64,000 bases of DNA from Frankiales bacterium (GTDB lineage Bacteria; Actinomycetota; Actinomycetes; S36-B12; CAIYMF01), in NCBI GenBank assembly GCA_016125335.1, contig WGLY01000036.1, positions 1 to 64,000 of the forward strand, in the 5' to 3' direction. The translations under genes and the position numbers were made by a program. Of the stretch, positions 37,041 to 46,036 are shown piece after piece (position 1 is the first letter of the stretch; every line of letters starts with the position of its first letter). Under the pieces are notes generated by a model, which ran no database searches, had not been told where the DNA came from, and was given only the letters and a program-made list of their open reading frames with translations.

Positions 37041-37070
37041 TTGACGTTCGTGACAGTAACGATGTATCGT
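37041..37070 (+). promoter_or_regulatory. padR promoter
   Basis: TTGACG (37041-37046), 18-bp spacer, then TATCGT (37065-37070), inside the large palindrome. A bound repressor would cover both elements. Confidence 0.6.
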
Positions 37071-37083
37071 TACTGTCACGAAC
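37046..37083. promoter_or_regulatory. 38-bp perfect operator palindrome of the padR gene
   Basis: Left arm GTTCGTGACAGTAACGAT, 2-nt centre GT, and a right arm that is its exact 18-base complement. It overlaps the promoter and ends 18 nt before the padR ATG. Such a long perfect dyad next to a padR gene is almost certainly its autoregulatory operator. Confidence 0.88.
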
Positions 37084-37101: not shown

Positions 37102-37704
37102 ATGACCTCGCACTCCCACCCCCAGCGGCACGGCGGGCCGGATCGACTTGCCGGCCGACGCCGCTACCACCACCCGGTCGACGCGTTCGACCACCCTGAC
37201 GACGCCGGCCACCGCGGCCGCGGGCCCGGACGCCGACACGGCGGACGCGGGCGCGCCCCGCGCGGCGACGTCCGCGCGGCCGTGCTGATGCTCCTCGCCG
37301 AGGAGCCCATGCACGGCTACCAGCTCATGCAGGCGATCGCCGACCGCAGCAACGGCCGGTGGACCCCGAGCCCGGGGGCCATCTACCCCGCGCTCGCCCA
37401 GCTCGAGGACGAGGGCCTGGTCACCGTGACGGCCGAGTCCGGCCGCAAGGTGGCCGCGCTCACCGACGCCGGCCGGGCGCTCGTCGCCGACGCCGAGGCC
37501 GCACCCGCGGACCCGTTCGGCGGCTACGAGGGCCGACGCCGCGGACCGGACCTCCGCGACCTGCTCGAGCAGCTGCACGGCGCGACCCGCCAGGTGGGCC
37601 GCAACGGCACGGAGGCCCAGGTCGAGAAGGCGGCAGCGATCCTCACCGAGGCGCGCCGCTCGATGTACCTGCTCCTGGCCGACGGCCCGGAGACCGACTC
37701 GTGA
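37102..37704 (+). CDS. PadR-family transcriptional regulator
   Basis: A 200-residue PadR regulator. A His/Arg/Gly-rich N-terminal extension (residues 1-52, metal-binding-like) is followed by the winged helix (VRAAVLMLLAEEPMHGYQLMQAI, then PSPGAIYPALAQLEDEGLVTV) and a C-terminal helical dimerisation part. AAGGAGG ribosome site. Its stop overlaps the DUF2218 gene start (GTGA). The His-rich tail suggests metal responsiveness, but this is inference. Confidence 0.93.
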   Translation: MTSHSHPQRHGGPDRLAGRRRYHHPVDAFDHPDDAGHRGRGPGRRHGGRGRAPRGDVRAAVLMLLAEEPMHGYQLMQAIADRSNGRWTPSPGAIYPALAQLEDEGLVTVTAESGRKVAALTDAGRALVADAEAAPADPFGGYEGRRRGPDLRDLLEQLHGATRQVGRNGTEAQVEKAAAILTEARRSMYLLLADGPETDS

Positions 37705-40849: not shown

Positions 40850-41080
40850 ATGGGTCAGAAGAAGAGCTGGAGCGACCTGTCGTCCGGCCAGCAGACCGCC
40901 GTCATCGTCGGCGGCGCCGTCGAGCTGGTGCTCACCACGGTGGCCCTCGTCGACCTCGTCCGGCGCCCGCGCGAGCAGGTGCGCGGCCCCAAGCCGCTGT
41001 GGTGCGCGTCGTTCGTGGTGCAGCCCGTCGGCCCGATCGCCTACCTGCTCGTCGGCCGGCGCCGCTCCCCCGCCGCCTGA
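40850..41080 (+). CDS. Small PLDc_N-domain membrane protein
   Basis: A 76-residue protein. One helix (AVIVGGAVELVLTTVALVDLV) is followed by RRPREQVRGPKPLWCASFVVQPVGPIAYLLVGRRR, the phospholipase-D-nuclease N-terminal (PLDc_N) two-helix pattern with the V-x-P-x-G-x-x-x-Y motif. GGAGG precedes the ATG. The function is unknown; it may be a membrane regulator. A copy of the 57-bp repeat follows 8 nt after the stop. Confidence 0.88.
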   Translation: MGQKKSWSDLSSGQQTAVIVGGAVELVLTTVALVDLVRRPREQVRGPKPLWCASFVVQPVGPIAYLLVGRRRSPAA

Positions 41081-41088
41081 CCCCTCGT

Positions 41089-41145
41089 CGTTACTGCCCG
41101 GATGACCGGATCCTGGCGCCGGATCCGGATCTTCCGGCAGTAACG
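41089..41145 (+). repeat. 57-bp palindromic repeat, copy 1
   Basis: Begins CGTTACTGCCCGGATGACCG and ends CTTCCGGCAGTAACG, with a GGATCCGG core. Same length and termini as copies at 42849 and 45058, with more substitutions. The inverted ends can form a hairpin; it lies between convergent genes. Confidence 0.88.
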
Positions 41146-41200
41146 TGCGACCCCGGCCGGGGCGGCCGGCGGGAGCGAGCGGCACGGCGCGTGGTGATGA

Positions 41201-41641
41201 TCAGGCGTCGGCGAGCAGGCGGCGCAGCAGACTGCGCAGCTGGCGGTGGCCGCGCTCGCCGAGCACCTCGGCGAGCCGCGCCTCGATGCCCTCGATCGTC
41301 AGCATCCCCGCGGCGATGCAGTCACGTCCCCGGGGGGTGAGCGTGATCAGCTTCGCGCGCCGGTCGCGCGGATCGGGACGGCGCACCACGTAGCCGAGGT
41401 CCTCCAGCTCGTCGACCAGCTCGCCCATGGCCTGCGGCGTCATGTTCGCCCCGCGGGCCAGCTCGGTCAGCCGCGACCCGTCCTCGCTGATCTGCGCGAA
41501 CACGGCCGAGTGCGCGGGCTTCTGCGGGTAGCCGGCGCCCACGACGCCGTCGACGATCTGGAAGCCCAGCAGGCTGTAGGCCTGCCCGAGCAGTGCGACG
41601 GTGTTCGCCCCCTCAGCGGGGTCTTGTGCCCGTCGCGCCAT
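41201..41641 (-). CDS. MarR-family transcriptional regulator
   Basis: A 146-residue MarR regulator. The wing and recognition helix are at ~55-105 (LTELARGANMTPQAMGELVDELEDLGYVVRRPDPRDRRAKLITLT). A C-terminal dimerisation helix follows. ATG start. It is divergent from the hemerythrin gene, with a CCTGA-aca-TCAGG dyad in the gap, so it may control that operon and itself. Confidence 0.9.
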   Translation of the reverse strand: MARRAQDPAEGANTVALLGQAYSLLGFQIVDGVVGAGYPQKPAHSAVFAQISEDGSRLTELARGANMTPQAMGELVDELEDLGYVVRRPDPRDRRAKLITLTPRGRDCIAAGMLTIEGIEARLAEVLGERGHRQLRSLLRRLLADA

Positions 41642-41654
41642 AGTCCTAAGGTTA

Positions 41655-41667
41655 CCTGAACATCAGG
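41655..41667. promoter_or_regulatory. Possible MarR operator
   Basis: CCTGA-ACA-TCAGG, a 5-bp dyad 14 bp upstream of the marR start and in the gap shared with the hemerythrin gene. It is followed by GGCGGCCTGAAG, a further half-site. Confidence 0.45.
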
Positions 41668-41717
41668 CGGCCTGAAGAGTTCGCCACGCGGGCTCCGCCG
41701 CCGGGGAGGTGCCGGCC

Positions 41718-42395
41718 ATGGCCACGACCGCCGAGAACCAGCGTCCCGACGTGCACGAGATGGTGGTGGTGCACCGCATCTTCCGTCAGGGCTTCGCCGA
41801 GCTGGCGGAGCTGGCCCGCAGGGTGCCGGCCGGCGACACGGCCTGGGCCTCGGCGGTGTCCGACGAGACGGAGTTCCTGCTCAGCGCCCTGCACCACCAC
41901 CACACCGCCGAGGACGAGCACCTGTGGCCGCTGCTGGTGGCGCGGTCCGAGCCCGACGCCGGCCTCGTCGAGCGCATGGAGGCGCAGCACGAGGCGGTCG
42001 CACAGGCGGTCGGACGGAGCCGCTCGGTGCTGGGCCCGTGGCGCACCGCCCCGGGCGGGCCCGAGCTGGCCGATGCGCTCGACGCCGTGACGGCCGCACT
42101 GCTGCCGCATCTCGACGAGGAGGAGGCGGGCATCCTCCCGGTCTGCCGACGGTGCGTCACCCAGGCCGAGTGGCAGGCCATGGGCGACGCGGCGTTCGCC
42201 GAGTTCAGCAACGACGAGAAGTTCGTCGCGCTCGGCTGGATGCTGGTATCGGCCACCCCCGAGGAGTCCGCGGCGTTCGTCGCCCGCCTCCCCTGGGTGG
42301 TGCGGGCGATGTGGTCGCTCATGGGACGCCGCCGGTTCGAGCGCCGGATGACGCGGCTGCGCGGCGGCAGCGACGTCGCCGGGGTCTGGCCGTGA
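41718..42395 (+). CDS. Hemerythrin HHE-domain protein
   Basis: A 225-residue protein with an N-terminal hemerythrin-like bundle: VVVHRIFRQGF (His), HHHHTAEDEHLWP (His/Glu), MEAQHEAV (His), and HLDEEEAGILP (His/Glu). These are the di-iron ligands. The C-terminal ~70 residues are helical. GGGGAGG before the ATG. Its stop overlaps the next gene (GTGA). It probably binds O2, NO or iron; the partner oxidoreductase suggests a redox job. Confidence 0.92.
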   Translation: MATTAENQRPDVHEMVVVHRIFRQGFAELAELARRVPAGDTAWASAVSDETEFLLSALHHHHTAEDEHLWPLLVARSEPDAGLVERMEAQHEAVAQAVGRSRSVLGPWRTAPGGPELADALDAVTAALLPHLDEEEAGILPVCRRCVTQAEWQAMGDAAFAEFSNDEKFVALGWMLVSATPEESAAFVARLPWVVRAMWSLMGRRRFERRMTRLRGGSDVAGVWP

Positions 42396-42853
42396 CCTCG
42401 CTGCGCCGCCGGTGGACCCGCACGGGCAACCGGGTCGGGGTGTGGCTGTACCGGCGTACCGACGGGCGGCTGTCGAGCTGGAGCAAGGACATCCACGTCG
42501 CGATGGTGACGACGCCGGGGCGCCGCACCGGCGTGCCGCGGCCCGCCTGCATGCGGTTCCTCGAGGAGGGCGACGACCTCGTCGTGTGGGGCACCGGGTC
42601 CGGCTCGCCGCACGACCCCGACTGGTTCGAGAACCTCCGCCGGGCGGAGGTGGCCGAGGTGCAGGTGCTCGGACGCCGGTTCCGCGCGGTGCCGCGGGAG
42701 CTGCTCGGCGACGAGCGCGACCGCGTGTGGCGCGACGTCGTCCTCGTGCAGGCACCGCAGGTGGCGAGGTACGCCGCCAAGGCCGGGCGGACGATCCCGG
42801 TCGCCGTCCTCACCCCCGTGCCGGCCGACGCACCCCCGACCCCCTCGACGTAA
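42392..42853 (+). CDS. Deazaflavin (F420)-dependent nitroreductase-family protein
   Basis: A 153-residue DDN-like split-barrel protein (nitroreductase family deazaflavin-dependent oxidoreductase). Recognisable segments are TTPGRRTGVPRPACMRFLEEGDDLVVWGTGSGSPHDPDWFENL and VQVLGRRFRAVPREL. The GTG start overlaps the hemerythrin stop. Its TAA stop codon lies inside the 57-bp repeat that begins 3 nt earlier. Confidence 0.9.
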   Translation: MTSLRRRWTRTGNRVGVWLYRRTDGRLSSWSKDIHVAMVTTPGRRTGVPRPACMRFLEEGDDLVVWGTGSGSPHDPDWFENLRRAEVAEVQVLGRRFRAVPRELLGDERDRVWRDVVLVQAPQVARYAAKAGRTIPVAVLTPVPADAPPTPST

Positions 42854-42905
42854 CTGCCCGAAAGCGCGGACTTCGCGCCCAGATCCGGTCGTTCGGGCAG
42901 TAACG
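42849..42905 (+). repeat. 57-bp palindromic repeat, copy 2
   Basis: Begins CGTAACTGCCCGAAAGCGCG and ends GTTCGGGCAGTAACG. It differs from copy 3 mainly in the centre and by one T-to-A change at position 4, which makes the TAA stop of the upstream gene. Confidence 0.92.
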
Positions 42906-42932
42906 CGGAGGTCGGGCCGTCCGGACGGCGAG

Positions 42933-42959
42933 TTGCAGTTGTTTGCAATTGTGTAGATA
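42933..42959 (+). promoter_or_regulatory. Possible ArsR operator and promoter
   Basis: TTGCA-gttgtt-TGCAA (42933-42948) is a 5-bp dyad typical of ArsR-type sites, followed by TAGATA (42954-42959), a possible -10 box 39 bp before the arsR start. TTGCAG could double as a -35 with a short spacer of 15. Confidence 0.55.
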
Positions 42960-42998
42960 CTCACCCCGTTCCTCGTCCCGCTCGCGACGGAGGCCGGC

Positions 42999-43334
42999 GT
43001 GCCCGTCCCGCTCTACCAGGCCAAGGCGGAGTTCTTCCGCACCCTCGGCCACCCGGTGCGCATCCGGGTGCTCGAGCTGCTCACCGAGCGCGACCACGCC
43101 GTGCACGAGCTGCTCGACGAGATCGACGTCGAGCCCAGCGCGCTCTCGCAGCAGCTCGCCGTGCTGCGCCGAGCCGGCCTGGTGACGCCGCGCCGCGAGG
43201 GCGGCGAGGTGGTCTACCGCGTCGTCGTCCCGGAGGTGGCCGACCTCCTGCTCGCCGGCCGCGCCATCCTGCGCCGCGTCGCCGAGGAGCAGGGCGCCCT
43301 CGGGCGCCAGCTGCGCAGCCGGGCCCGCTCGTGA
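42999..43334 (+). CDS. ArsR-family transcriptional regulator
   Basis: A 111-residue winged-helix ArsR regulator: FFRTLGHPVRIRVLELLTERDHAVHELLDEIDVEPSALSQQLAVLRRAGLVTPRREG. The usual metal-binding ELCVC motif is absent (no Cys), so it senses something else. GTG start. Its stop overlaps the SulP gene start (GTGA), the same pairing seen in other actinomycetes, where an ArsR controls a SulP transporter. Confidence 0.92.
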   Translation: MPVPLYQAKAEFFRTLGHPVRIRVLELLTERDHAVHELLDEIDVEPSALSQQLAVLRRAGLVTPRREGGEVVYRVVVPEVADLLLAGRAILRRVAEEQGALGRQLRSRARS

Positions 43335-45040
43335 GCCAGGCCCTCGCCGCCCCGCCGCCGGCCACCGGCATCGCCCGGGTGGGACGCCGGATCCGCGCGC
43401 TGCTGCCCGGCCGCGCCGAGTGGCAGTCGGTCCGCCGCGACCCCAAGCGCGACCTGGTCGCCGGCCTCACCGTCGCCGTGGTCGCCCTGCCGCTCGCGCT
43501 CGCCTTCGGCATCACGTCCGGCCTGGGAGCCGGTGCCGGGCTGATCACGGCCGCGATCGCCGGCGCGGTGGCCGCGGTCTTCGGCGGCAGCAACCTCCAG
43601 GTGTCCGGCCCCACCGGCGCGATGACCGTCGTGCTCGTGCCGATCGTGGCGCAGTACGGCGCGTCCACGGTGCTGGTGGTCGGCCTGATCGCCGGGCTCA
43701 TCCTGCTAGTGGCGGCCTACACCGGCGCCGGGCGCTACATGCGCTACGTGCCGGTGCCGGTGGTGGAGGGCTTCACCGTCGGCATCGCGCTGATCATCGG
43801 GCTCCAGCAGATCCCTGCCGCGCTCGGGACGTCCGGCGAGGGCGAGAAGGTGCTCGCGGTCGCGGTGTCGGCGGTCCGCTCGTGGCTGGCCCACCCGCAC
43901 TGGGCGGAGCCGCTCGTGGCGGCGTTCGTCGTCGTCGTGATGCTCGGCGCGGTGCGCTGGCGCCCGGCCTGGCCGGTGTCGCTGCCCGCAGTCGTGGTGG
44001 CCGCCGTCGTCGTGCAGCTGACGCACCTGGCGGTGCCCACGATCGGCTCGATCCCCTCAGGCCTGCCGCACCCGTCGTGGCCGGTCGTGCCGTGGGGCTC
44101 GCTGGGCAGCCTGGTGCTGCCGGCCGTGGCGGTCGCCGCCCTCGGCGCGCTGGAGAGCCTGCTCTCGGCCACCGTCGCCGACGGCATGCGCGTCGACGAG
44201 CGCCACGACCCGGACAAGGAGCTCGTGGGCCAGGGCCTGGCCAACGTCGTGACGCCGTTCTTCGGCGGCATCCCGGCCACCGCGGCCATCGCGCGGACGG
44301 CGGTCAACGTGCGCTCGGGCGCGCGCTCGCGGCTGGCCGCGCTCACCCACGCCCTCGTGCTGCTCGTCGTCATGGCGGCGCTGGCGCCGCTGGTGGCCGG
44401 CATCCCGCTCGCCGCGCTGGCCGGCGTCCTCATCGCGACCGCCGTGCTCATGATCGAGGTGACCGGCCTGCGCGCGATCCTGCGCTCGACCCGTGGCGAC
44501 GCCGTCGTGCTCGTGCTCACCACGGTCGCGACGGTGGCGTTCGACCTCGTCACCGCCGTGCTGCTCGGCCTCGTGGTGGCCGGCTTCTTCGCGCTCCAGC
44601 AGGTCGCCCGCGCGTCGCGCCTGGACACCGAGCCGGTGTCGCTCGACTCCGACGACCACCAGGCCGAGGAGGCGTCGCTGCTCGCCGAGCACATCGTCGC
44701 CTACCGGCTGGAGGGGTCGCTGTTCTTCGGCGCCGCGCACACCTTCCTGCTCGAGCTCTCCGAGATCTCGCAGGTGAGCGTCGTCGTGCTGCGCATGTCG
44801 CACCTCGCCACGCTGGACGCCACCGGCGCCTCGATCCTGGCCGACACGATCCGCCGCCTGGAGGGGCGCCACGTCACCGTGCTGCTCTCGGGCGTGCGGC
44901 CCGAGCACGTGCAGGTGCTCCAGCGGCTGCGCGTCTACGAGCAGCTCGCGCACGAGCGGCACGTGTTCGCCACCACGCCCGAGGCGATCGAGCACGCGCG
45001 CGTGCACGCGCACCGGGTGGCGCACGACCCCGCCCGCTGA
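43331..45040 (+). CDS. SulP-family anion transporter with STAS domain
   Basis: A 569-residue SulP permease with about 12 membrane helices (residues ~40-430). Family segments are VSGPTGAMTVVL and FFGGIPATAAIARTAVNVRSGARSR. A C-terminal STAS domain (~455-560) contains RMSHLATLDATGASILADTIRRL. It could carry sulfate or bicarbonate; an ArsR regulator without cysteines gives no clue. It overlaps arsR by 4 nt. A 57-bp repeat lies 17 nt after the stop. Confidence 0.93.
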   Translation: MSQALAAPPPATGIARVGRRIRALLPGRAEWQSVRRDPKRDLVAGLTVAVVALPLALAFGITSGLGAGAGLITAAIAGAVAAVFGGSNLQVSGPTGAMTVVLVPIVAQYGASTVLVVGLIAGLILLVAAYTGAGRYMRYVPVPVVEGFTVGIALIIGLQQIPAALGTSGEGEKVLAVAVSAVRSWLAHPHWAEPLVAAFVVVVMLGAVRWRPAWPVSLPAVVVAAVVVQLTHLAVPTIGSIPSGLPHPSWPVVPWGSLGSLVLPAVAVAALGALESLLSATVADGMRVDERHDPDKELVGQGLANVVTPFFGGIPATAAIARTAVNVRSGARSRLAALTHALVLLVVMAALAPLVAGIPLAALAGVLIATAVLMIEVTGLRAILRSTRGDAVVLVLTTVATVAFDLVTAVLLGLVVAGFFALQQVARASRLDTEPVSLDSDDHQAEEASLLAEHIVAYRLEGSLFFGAAHTFLLELSEISQVSVVVLRMSHLATLDATGASILADTIRRLEGRHVTVLLSGVRPEHVQVLQRLRVYEQLAHERHVFATTPEAIEHARVHAHRVAHDPAR

Positions 45041-45057
45041 GCCTCGCCAGGCTGCGA

Positions 45058-45114
45058 CGTTACTGCCCGAAAGCGCGGAGTCCGGGCCTGGATCCGGTCG
45101 TTCGGGCAGTAACG
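45058..45114 (+). repeat. 57-bp palindromic repeat, copy 3
   Basis: Begins CGTTACTGCCCGAAAGCGCG and ends GTTCGGGCAGTAACG. The 13-bp ends GTTACTGCCCGAA/TTCGGGCAGTAAC are perfectly complementary. Lies 17 nt after the SulP stop. Confidence 0.92.
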
Positions 45115-45175: not shown

Positions 45176-46036
45176 GTGGACCTCGAGCTGCGCACCCCGC
45201 CCGTGGAGCACCTGACCGAGCTGCTCGCAGCACTGGGCCGATGGCAGCGCGACGACGACCCCTTCCAGCTGCACCCGGGCGACCTCGGCTGGTTCTGGCG
45301 GTTCGGCGCGACGACGACGGCCGCCGCCACCCGCACCTGGGACTCCGGCGGCAACCCGCTCGTGGTCGGCCTGCTCGACGAGCCGGACGTGCTGCGCCTC
45401 GCGATCGCGCCCGAGGCGCGGCTCGACGACGAGGCCGCGGCGCAGGTGGTCGACGACCTCGTCACGCCCGGCCGCGTGCTGCCCGCCGGCCGCGTCGCGG
45501 TCGAGGCACCGGTGGGCTCCCGCGTGCGAGCACTGCTGCTCGAGCGCGGCTGGGTCGAGCGCGACCCGCGCGCGCCGCTGCGCCACCGTCTGGCCAGCCT
45601 GCCCGACGTCGGCCTGCGCATCGAGCAGGTGGAGCCGGCCACCGTGGGTGTGCGCACCGCCGTCCAGCGCGCGGCGTTCGACCGCTCCACCTTCACCGAC
45701 TCGCGCTGGCACGCCATGGCCGAGGGCCCGGCCTACGCCGACGCGCGCTGCCTCGTGGGCTACGACGACCACGGCACGGCCGTGGCGGCCTGCACGGTGT
45801 GGTCGGCCGGCCCGGGACGCCCCGGGCTGCTCGAGCCGCTGGGCGTGCACCGCGACCATCGCGGCCACGGCTTCGGCACGGCCATCGCGCGCGCCGCCGC
45901 CGCCGCGCTGCACGCACTGGGTGCGAGCAGCGCGCTCGTGAACACCGCGAGCTCGAACGTCGTGGCCGTCGCGACGTACGCGTCGGCCGGGTTCGAGCCG
46001 CTCCCCCCGGTGTGCGACGTCGTCCGCGAGGCCTGA
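45176..46036 (+). CDS. GNAT-family acetyltransferase
   Basis: A 286-residue protein. The C-terminal GNAT domain (~165-286) has the acetyl-CoA pyrophosphate motif LGVHRDHRGHGFGTAIARAAAAAL and ends with NVVAVATYASAGFEPLPP. The N-terminal half is a second, degenerate GNAT-like domain. GTG at 45176 is preferred; an upstream in-frame GTG (45143) would add 11 residues. The substrate is unknown. Confidence 0.88.
   Translation: MDLELRTPPVEHLTELLAALGRWQRDDDPFQLHPGDLGWFWRFGATTTAAATRTWDSGGNPLVVGLLDEPDVLRLAIAPEARLDDEAAAQVVDDLVTPGRVLPAGRVAVEAPVGSRVRALLLERGWVERDPRAPLRHRLASLPDVGLRIEQVEPATVGVRTAVQRAAFDRSTFTDSRWHAMAEGPAYADARCLVGYDDHGTAVAACTVWSAGPGRPGLLEPLGVHRDHRGHGFGTAIARAAAAALHALGASSALVNTASSNVVAVATYASAGFEPLPPVCDVVREA

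Follow-up and report, generated by a model that had tools for sequence, protein, structure and literature searches.

Three imperfect palindromes of one length, each lying at the end of a gene within about 4 kb of an actinobacterial contig, raise the question of what kind of repeat they represent: 3′-end hairpins, binding sites, or members of a mobile family. They are found in a stretch of 64,000 nucleotides (the window; positions 1 to 64,000 of contig WGLY01000036.1, Frankiales bacterium assembly GCA_016125335.1) at 41089..41145 (copy 1), 42849..42905 (copy 2), and 45058..45114 (copy 3), with no strand assigned. The start positions and the exact length of 57 bp given in the original prediction, which was made from the letters of the window alone, are confirmed. 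The answer that we favor, with a probability of about 0.58, is that they belong to a dispersed non-coding family of imperfect palindromes, similar to repetitive extragenic palindromes (REPs), which was spread in trans, settled at gene 3′ ends, and is exploited by an insertion sequence (IS) of the IS30 family.

The genome that holds the window (G000; a high-GC draft assembly of 3.93 Mb in 41 contigs) contains many more such palindromes. A strict search recovered 33 copies, all of 57 or 58 bp, with none obtained for a reversed-pattern control; permitting any base at position 4 (CGTNACTG ends) raised the number to 37, and four further copies carry other changes in one or both ends. The repeat family proposed from the three copies of the window has, genome-wide, at least 41 intact members, in addition to three split by an IS and at least one further diverged copy (L032:1991). 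The statistics below concern the set of 37, with the copies at C2:96493, C10:40867, C15:153797, and C20:12995, the diverged copy, and a second family of G000 set aside. That second family has GTCACTGGTG-type ends and four copies in the loci examined (L026:14427, L036:5664, L036:7319, and L038:1697), each 55 bp from GTNAC to GTNAC and adjoining a gene 3′ end. In the majority layout of the main family, an arm comprises the decamer CGTTACTGCC, a variable word at positions 11-18, and CGGA, followed by a 13-14-nt core, and the arms are built from a limited set of words combined in many ways. More generally, the unit has GTNAC at both ends and, between them, about 45 nt of variable sequence made up of a core and imperfectly complementary arms. 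Its near-constant total of 55-56 bp corresponds to the 57-58 bp of the copies as originally drawn; in copy 1, it spans 41090-41144 (55 bp). The conserved ends noticed in the window are borne out overall, although the left end of copy 2 reads CGTAACTGCC, whereas the GGATCCGG core does not characterize the family, as the core varies across the genome. The common orientation ascribed to the three copies has little meaning for a palindrome and survives only as an order of arm variants common to copies 2 and 3.

With at most one mismatch, the decamer occurs nine times in the window, against 2.4 expected, a number reached by none of 100 shuffles. Its 75 exact occurrences in G000 are all arms of palindromes of this family: by a tally made by hand, 62 lie in strict copies and 13 are single, six of these being halves of IS-split copies and seven facing a diverged arm. 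With all the decamers in palindromes, no gene bounded by these ends was found in the draft assembly, nor was the partner transposase with the same ends that the original prediction suggested looking for. The more familiar partner of dispersed, imperfect extragenic palindromes, of which G000 has many, is the REP-associated tyrosine transposase (RAYT). At E <= 0.001, its domain (Y1_Tnp, PF01797) was detected in five of 14 control genomes but in none of the genus's 11 drafts, and a GT(A/G)G or GGAG head within 6 nt outside the palindrome is present on only one of 150 sides (75 copies, three genomes). Classical REPs moved by a RAYT would account for repeated extragenic palindromes that lie near stop codons and are hit by ISs, as REPs are according to the available parts of PMC1525189. 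However, the genus has no detected Y1 transposase, the head is lacking, and the palindromes are longer than the REPs tabulated in the accessible part of PMC2817692; we therefore rejected this identity as very improbable.

The split copies show how a mobile element makes use of these palindromes. An element of 1097 bp, encoding an IS30-family transposase (NF033563, E=1.1e-77, 261.3 bits against a cutoff of 80), is represented in the G000 assembly by six ends, left and right alike beginning with GGCGGGTTCA, and all six sit exactly 30 nt inside a palindrome. Matched by their last three bases, the left and right ends pair one-to-one (GCC, GCG, and GGG), with a 57-bp palindrome recovered from each pair. 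In all three sites reconstructed by this pairing across contigs, the element had inserted at the dyad center with a 3-bp duplication. Together, the palindromes occupy less than 0.1% of the genome (44 x 57 out of 3.93 million bases), so these positions cannot credibly be ascribed to chance, and the choice of the palindromes as targets by the IS30-family element is well supported. The exact insertion at the dyad center of three copies thus marks the palindromes as its landing sites and offers a naturally occurring test of the features that an IS30 transposase recognizes in them. A role of this element in spreading them is not supported, because its own ends differ. Its single fully assembled copy (L026:2728-3884, equivalent to C13:134227-135383) is flanked by sequences that differ from one another but match two other contig ends, which reflects either recombination between two IS copies or an assembly error. 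Relatives of the transposase in G009, G007, and G002, three other genomes of the comparison, are 53, 58, and 51% identical, respectively; their five loci, most of them partial, contain no GTNACTG palindrome and leave targeting there neither supported nor excluded. The best 15 listed plasmid matches of the transposase are from Streptomyces and Streptantibioticus, at 45-48% identity.

Comparison with related genomes points to what is held constant in these elements. Families with CGTNACTG ends occur in three of the 11 genomes of the genus, G000 (37 copies), G010 (24, almost all of 58 bp), and G008 (16, almost all of 57 bp; 14 of them were fetched). Their arms differ and their length is the same. 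The CGTNACTG pattern finds none in the other eight genomes, and among 166 genomes of the order, multiple matches are limited to these three, with six others showing one each that look like chance. Four single arms in G010 comprise one in a diverged copy and three that look like chance. A pattern-free look at G009 revealed a family of its own, with five copies in 400 kb and GAGTAACTGGCG-type ends, and the sample of G002 holds one GTNAC-ended copy of 56 bp. When only GTNAC ends were specified (1.33 Mb from nine relatives, lengths of 30-89 bp, at least 11 of 12 outer pairs), eight palindromes were found, of which five are exactly 56 bp (four in G009 and one in G002) and one each is 34, 65, and 77 bp; one of the four in G009 is yet another sequence. 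At this threshold, G001, G003, G004, G007, and three sister-genus genomes yielded none in small samples of 40-160 kb each; the sampling did not include G005 and G006. Eleven control end motifs behaved differently: the lengths were scattered for the rarer ones, and for the commonest (CG.CG) they formed several small, similar peaks without a dominant one. With at least 10 of 12 outer pairs, lengths of 55 or 56 bp account for 35/40 GTNAC palindromes in G000, 23/25 in G010, and 14/25 in G008, in loci that had been chosen for their elements; the other 11 of G008 are 85 bp each, which fits one tandem unit of 30 plus 55. Thus, since relatives differ in their arms at the same length, the constant features of the system are the GTNAC ends and the length of 55-56 bp rather than the arm sequence.

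A wider contig scan for palindromes with CGTTACTGCC ends, which may omit the window's own and very near records, returned eight stretches, two of them probably chance and six from Mycobacterium. The latter (L052-L057; 57-59 bp, with inner GGCAGTATAGTCA-type repeats) differ in their inner sequence and are perhaps an operator-like site. Viral contigs gave no match to either of two patterns, phages none, and plasmids two weak partial matches (E 0.09). Other palindromes were also encountered in the related genomes. The sister-genus genome G011 has a separate family (TGGTCGAGCGTAGTCGAGACC..., 54-56 bp, without GTNAC ends) with six copies in 129 kb (L204:1993, L204:2165, L206:11279, L207:4155, L209:4317, and L209:4528), and G002 has two copies of a 50-bp palindrome (GGAGATGTGTA..., L188:1037 and L199:8849).

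The placement of the copies relative to genes, for which we used a home-made gene caller rather than a standard one, is nonrandom. As the original prediction stated, each copy of the window lies just after a stop codon or overlaps one (copy 1 by 8 nt, copy 3 by 17 nt, with copy 2 overlapping). Across G000, 34 of the 37 copies adjoin a gene 3′ end, with 26 lying within 20 nt of a stop or overlapping it and 20 within 15 nt. Twelve copies are in convergent settings, 19 in tandem, three in divergent, and three at contig edges. When gaps are counted rather than copies (two copies on C13 share one gap), convergent gaps make up 11/33 of those with an element versus 13/114 of those without (gaps of at least 40 bp in the same loci; p=0.006), whereas the deficit in divergent gaps is not significant (p=0.09). 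In G010, 22/24 copies adjoin a 3′ end, 20 of them within 20 nt, and the five G009 copies, like the four of the second G000 family, do so without exception. Proximity to core genes is also seen: 10 annotated proteins near copies in two clusters include PurC, PurB, and a class II fructose-bisphosphate aldolase (fba), so the palindromes also occur outside islands. Next to the one downstream of fba is a gene with an AbiEi-antitoxin-type N-terminal domain (L037:13872-14918).

These positions place a stable GC-rich hairpin after a gene. With 6-nt flanks on each side, copies 1, 2, and 3 fold with predicted energies of -43.0, -35.5, and -38.8 kcal/mol (z of -6.8, -3.5, and -4.6), and for each of them, none of 200 shuffles is as stable. 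Between 36000 and 50000 of the window, a terminator scan lists none of the three, and five sub-threshold Rfam matches all lie elsewhere than on the palindromes. The flanks are C-rich and G-poor toward the element on both sides (skew of 0.29 versus 0.09, p=4e-10), in a manner reminiscent of Rho sites. Judging from the hairpin, its 3′ location, and the enrichment in convergent gaps, a role as terminator or mRNA stabilizer, as first suggested for the three copies, is plausible, and the position just past the stop allows the idea that a repeat can provide genes with their 3′ ends to be tested on this family. Since REPs within 15 nt of a stop are reported, in the part of PMC12306157 available, to lower translation, the 20 copies at such distances raise lowered translation as a further possible function. 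Hairpins kept at 3′ ends by selection only, without ever having been mobile, would explain the placement, the strength of the folds, and the C-rich flanks. However, a terminator needs neither near-invariant ends nor species-specific arms nor a fixed length, a U-tract is absent, and the arms overall pair no better than random; selection alone thus strikes us as quite unlikely to be the full explanation.

The position after stop codons is also a feature of integron attC sites, which are imperfect palindromes with RYYYAAC/GTTRRRY boxes and for which 57 bp is at the small end of the length range. Length, location, and overall form would thus suit an attC-like site of an integron-type system. Nevertheless, the GTNAC on both sides does not fit these boxes, the copies are dispersed over many contigs rather than forming one array, and housekeeping genes are among their neighbors. 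We rejected this candidate on account of the boxes and consider it scarcely credible.

The internal structure of the palindromes was examined in 11 pairing tests, with P values uncorrected. In G000, position 17 brings together arms of mixed class in 26/37 copies, and positions 15-18 pair in 55/148 cells versus 71 expected (P=0.010). In G010 (22 copies, excluding the copy of 57 bp and one member of the identical pair at contig ends), positions 18-20 pair in 22/66 cells versus 32 expected (P=0.003), and the inner stem (positions 21-29) is paired in 111/198 versus 91.6 under random re-pairing (P=0.010). G008 (13 copies, excluding the 56-bp copy) has no bias toward differing arms, with positions 15-18 pairing in 47/52 cells. 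These patterns suggest an outer stem and an internal loop, as well as covariation in the inner stem of G010. They also bear on an origin as miniature inverted-repeat transposable elements (MITEs) in which the two terminal repeats of a transposon, left and right, are fused back to back. Such elements would have a fixed length and conserved tips, and the tendency of G000 and G010 arms to differ in kind is what left and right repeats would produce. Yet the arms of G008 are not of two kinds, the regions outside the tips show no excess of direct repeats, and no gene in the assembly carries these ends, which together make a fused-repeat origin unlikely.

The arms also occur as separate units. In G008, nine of the 14 intact fetched copies carry at least one extra half-site, oriented as the adjoining arm and following a 30-bp period (once 31-bp); up to eight half-sites precede the palindrome on C42, and C276 has a dozen units, partly decayed. 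Further half-sites on C288, C361, and C433 lie outside the fetched set. The TRF program reports a period of 30 at two places of one G008 contig, with 9.3 and 9.1 copies. The same length, 30, is that of each half left by a 3-bp-staggered IS30 insertion (57 = 2 x 30 - 3), an agreement that we regard as a coincidence meriting a test and not as a mechanism. Tandem half-sites of one orientation call to mind the binding sites of a host protein, such as a nucleoid, segregation, or silencing factor, for which the 22-nt arm would be a half-site and the palindrome a dimer site, with all sites changing together as the specificity of the protein changes. The modular arms, with the same words in many combinations, the confinement of the decamer to these sites (75/75), and core-gene neighbors such as purC, purB, and fba are in keeping with this idea. 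It sits less well with the eight of 11 genus genomes without a CGTNACTG match, although G009 and G002 have other GTNAC palindromes; moreover, a position 5-20 nt past stops is unusual for such sites, and a fixed 55-56 bp with freely changing arms is atypical of half-site recognition. Binding sites are thus a doubtful explanation, on a par with the fused-repeat origin.

We instead infer that the family was dispersed by a mobilizing enzyme and has taken on a function at 3′ ends. A trans-acting enzyme, probably not a RAYT, would read the GTNAC ends and their spacing and spread copies, which would settle downstream of genes, where they are harmless or somewhat useful. Transcripts on either strand could then gain a hairpin 3′ end, a two-way structure that is used or tolerated and that might act through U-less or Rho-assisted termination or through protection from 3′ exonucleases. 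Comparison of the flanks of the fetched copies leads us to favor a turnover of sites, with gains and losses, over purely vertical inheritance: four other G008 copies (beyond the one at fba) and one G010 copy have flanks matched in G000 on one side or in another layout. At one of these loci, two conserved stretches that are 18 bp apart on C27 of G000 (L036) are about 1.4 kb apart on C103 of G008 (L088), where the interval holds two predicted genes as well as a palindrome and an extra half-site. With regard to target duplications, a CG on each side is uninformative, being present in 25/37 G000 flanks versus 26.7 under random pairing and hence too common to reveal a 2-bp CG duplication.

Several observations weigh against this scenario. 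For none of the palindromes was a partner enzyme found or an empty site demonstrated. In the three genomes, direct repeats (2-9 bp, offsets of 0-3) are not in excess over randomly paired flanks. Near-identical copies are limited to a tandem duplication and to two identical copies at contig ends in G010, with other nearest neighbors of the same length differing at 3-14 positions; movement itself is therefore not seen, as there are no recently duplicated copies. The tandem duplication, at the contig starts of C4 and C11 (L020:1-300 and L025:1-300), is local and involves a palindrome plus flank, with 171 bp between the copies on C4. The locus downstream of fba has an element in both G000 and G008 with both flanks in common, the sole such pair among the fetched copies, which could mean old, vertically kept sites. 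On the functional side, three of the 37 G000 copies lie between divergent genes; in G008, 12/14 copies adjoin a 3′ end but only 3/14 are within 30 nt of it, the same number being within 20 nt of a stop. A U-tract is absent (mean of 1.32 T in 12 nt, maximum of 3, 74 sides). Finally, folding energies were compared for copies of the prevailing length (32 in G000, 23 in G010, and 13 in G008). In G000, the mean minimum free energy is -33.0 against -35.4 after re-pairing of arms, and 99.5% of 200 re-pairings are no less stable, whereas G010 and G008 do not differ from random re-pairing (fractions of 0.33 and 0.85). As the arms pair no better than when randomly re-paired, none of the three genomes gives an indication of selection for maximal hairpin strength.

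A more specific version of the dispersal scenario can be put forward tentatively, at well short of even odds: the palindromes may be mobile or site-specifically maintained hairpins with a length ruler (GTNAC, 55-56 bp) and interchangeable 30-bp half-units, reshuffled and, in one species, multiplied in tandem, which would be handled by an undescribed non-RAYT enzyme and, in one genome, provide a safe harbor for IS30. A literature search, including actinobacterial palindromes and MITEs, found no description of a fixed-length GTNAC hairpin family. More generally, a palindrome family with conserved tips and near-constant length but without a detected RAYT implies another route for the spreading or homogenizing of hairpins.

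In the window, copy 1 lies between a PLDc_N-domain gene (40850..41080, + strand; stop TGA at 41078-41080) and a MarR-family regulator gene convergent on it (41201..41641, - strand). This is followed on the + strand by a hemerythrin-domain gene (41709..42395) and an F420H(2)-dependent quinone reductase gene (42392..42853), whose stop TAA (42851-42853) is within copy 2. Between copies 2 and 3 are, also on the + strand, an ArsR-family regulator gene (42999..43334) and a sulfate-permease-family gene (SulP-type, with a STAS domain; 43331..45040, stop TGA at 45038-45040), and a GNAT acetyltransferase gene (45176..46036, + strand) lies downstream of copy 3. The arsR-sulP block is matched in five relatives, and the five loci contain no CGTNACTG palindrome, a comparison that proved nothing as to whether such gene blocks are cassettes. 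Elsewhere in the window, a perfect palindrome, GTGACAGTAACGATGTATCGTTACTGTCAC, at 37050-37079 (site 37041-37082), lies over a promoter-like site before a PadR-family gene (37102-37704) and probably serves as an operator for autoregulation. The CGTTACTG halves of this palindrome are turned the opposite way, and the resemblance looks like chance, given that 2.4 one-mismatch matches are expected in the window.

Among known systems, the closest analogy is with the REP/RAYT system, which the accessible literature describes mainly in Proteobacteria, with the repeats tied to RAYT (TnpA-REP) transposases. The available parts of PMC2817692, PMC12306157, and PMC1525189 depict REPs, like the elements considered here, as dispersed, imperfect, extragenic, species-specific palindromes, part of which lie near stops and which are targets of ISs. 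However, REPs are about 20-37 nt in the table rows of PMC2817692, against 57 bp here, and have a GT(A/G)G head, in place of which the present family has a conserved GTNAC at both ends, inside the stem. MITEs such as Correia and RUP, as far as they are covered in the same source, are likewise short, non-coding, and bounded by terminal inverted repeats, which the palindromes also possess; here, in contrast, no target duplication or autonomous partner was found and the whole element is one fixed-length hairpin. Thus, the original description as REP/MITE-like is upheld, as a resemblance, by copy number and nonrandom 3′ placement, and neither of the outcomes that it named as refuting, a lack of further copies or a random position relative to genes, was observed. 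Defining features of both REP/RAYT and MITE are nevertheless missing. The failure to detect a RAYT, together with the lack of a GT(A/G)G head and of a U-tract, sets the family apart from classical REPs and canonical intrinsic terminators, both of which it resembles. As a target of transposition, it resembles the REPs in which IS1397, ISKpn1, IS621, and ISPsy8 land specifically, but these are, in the part of PMC1525189 available, members of the IS3 and IS110 families, while the element described here is of the IS30 family, inserts at the exact dyad, and makes 3-bp duplications. Escherichia coli IS30, of the same transposase family, also prefers nearly palindromic hot spots that are distinct from its own inverted repeats, as recorded in the accessible text of PMC9333248; it generates duplications of 2 bp as opposed to 3 bp, and the targets of its relative in G000 form a repeat family.

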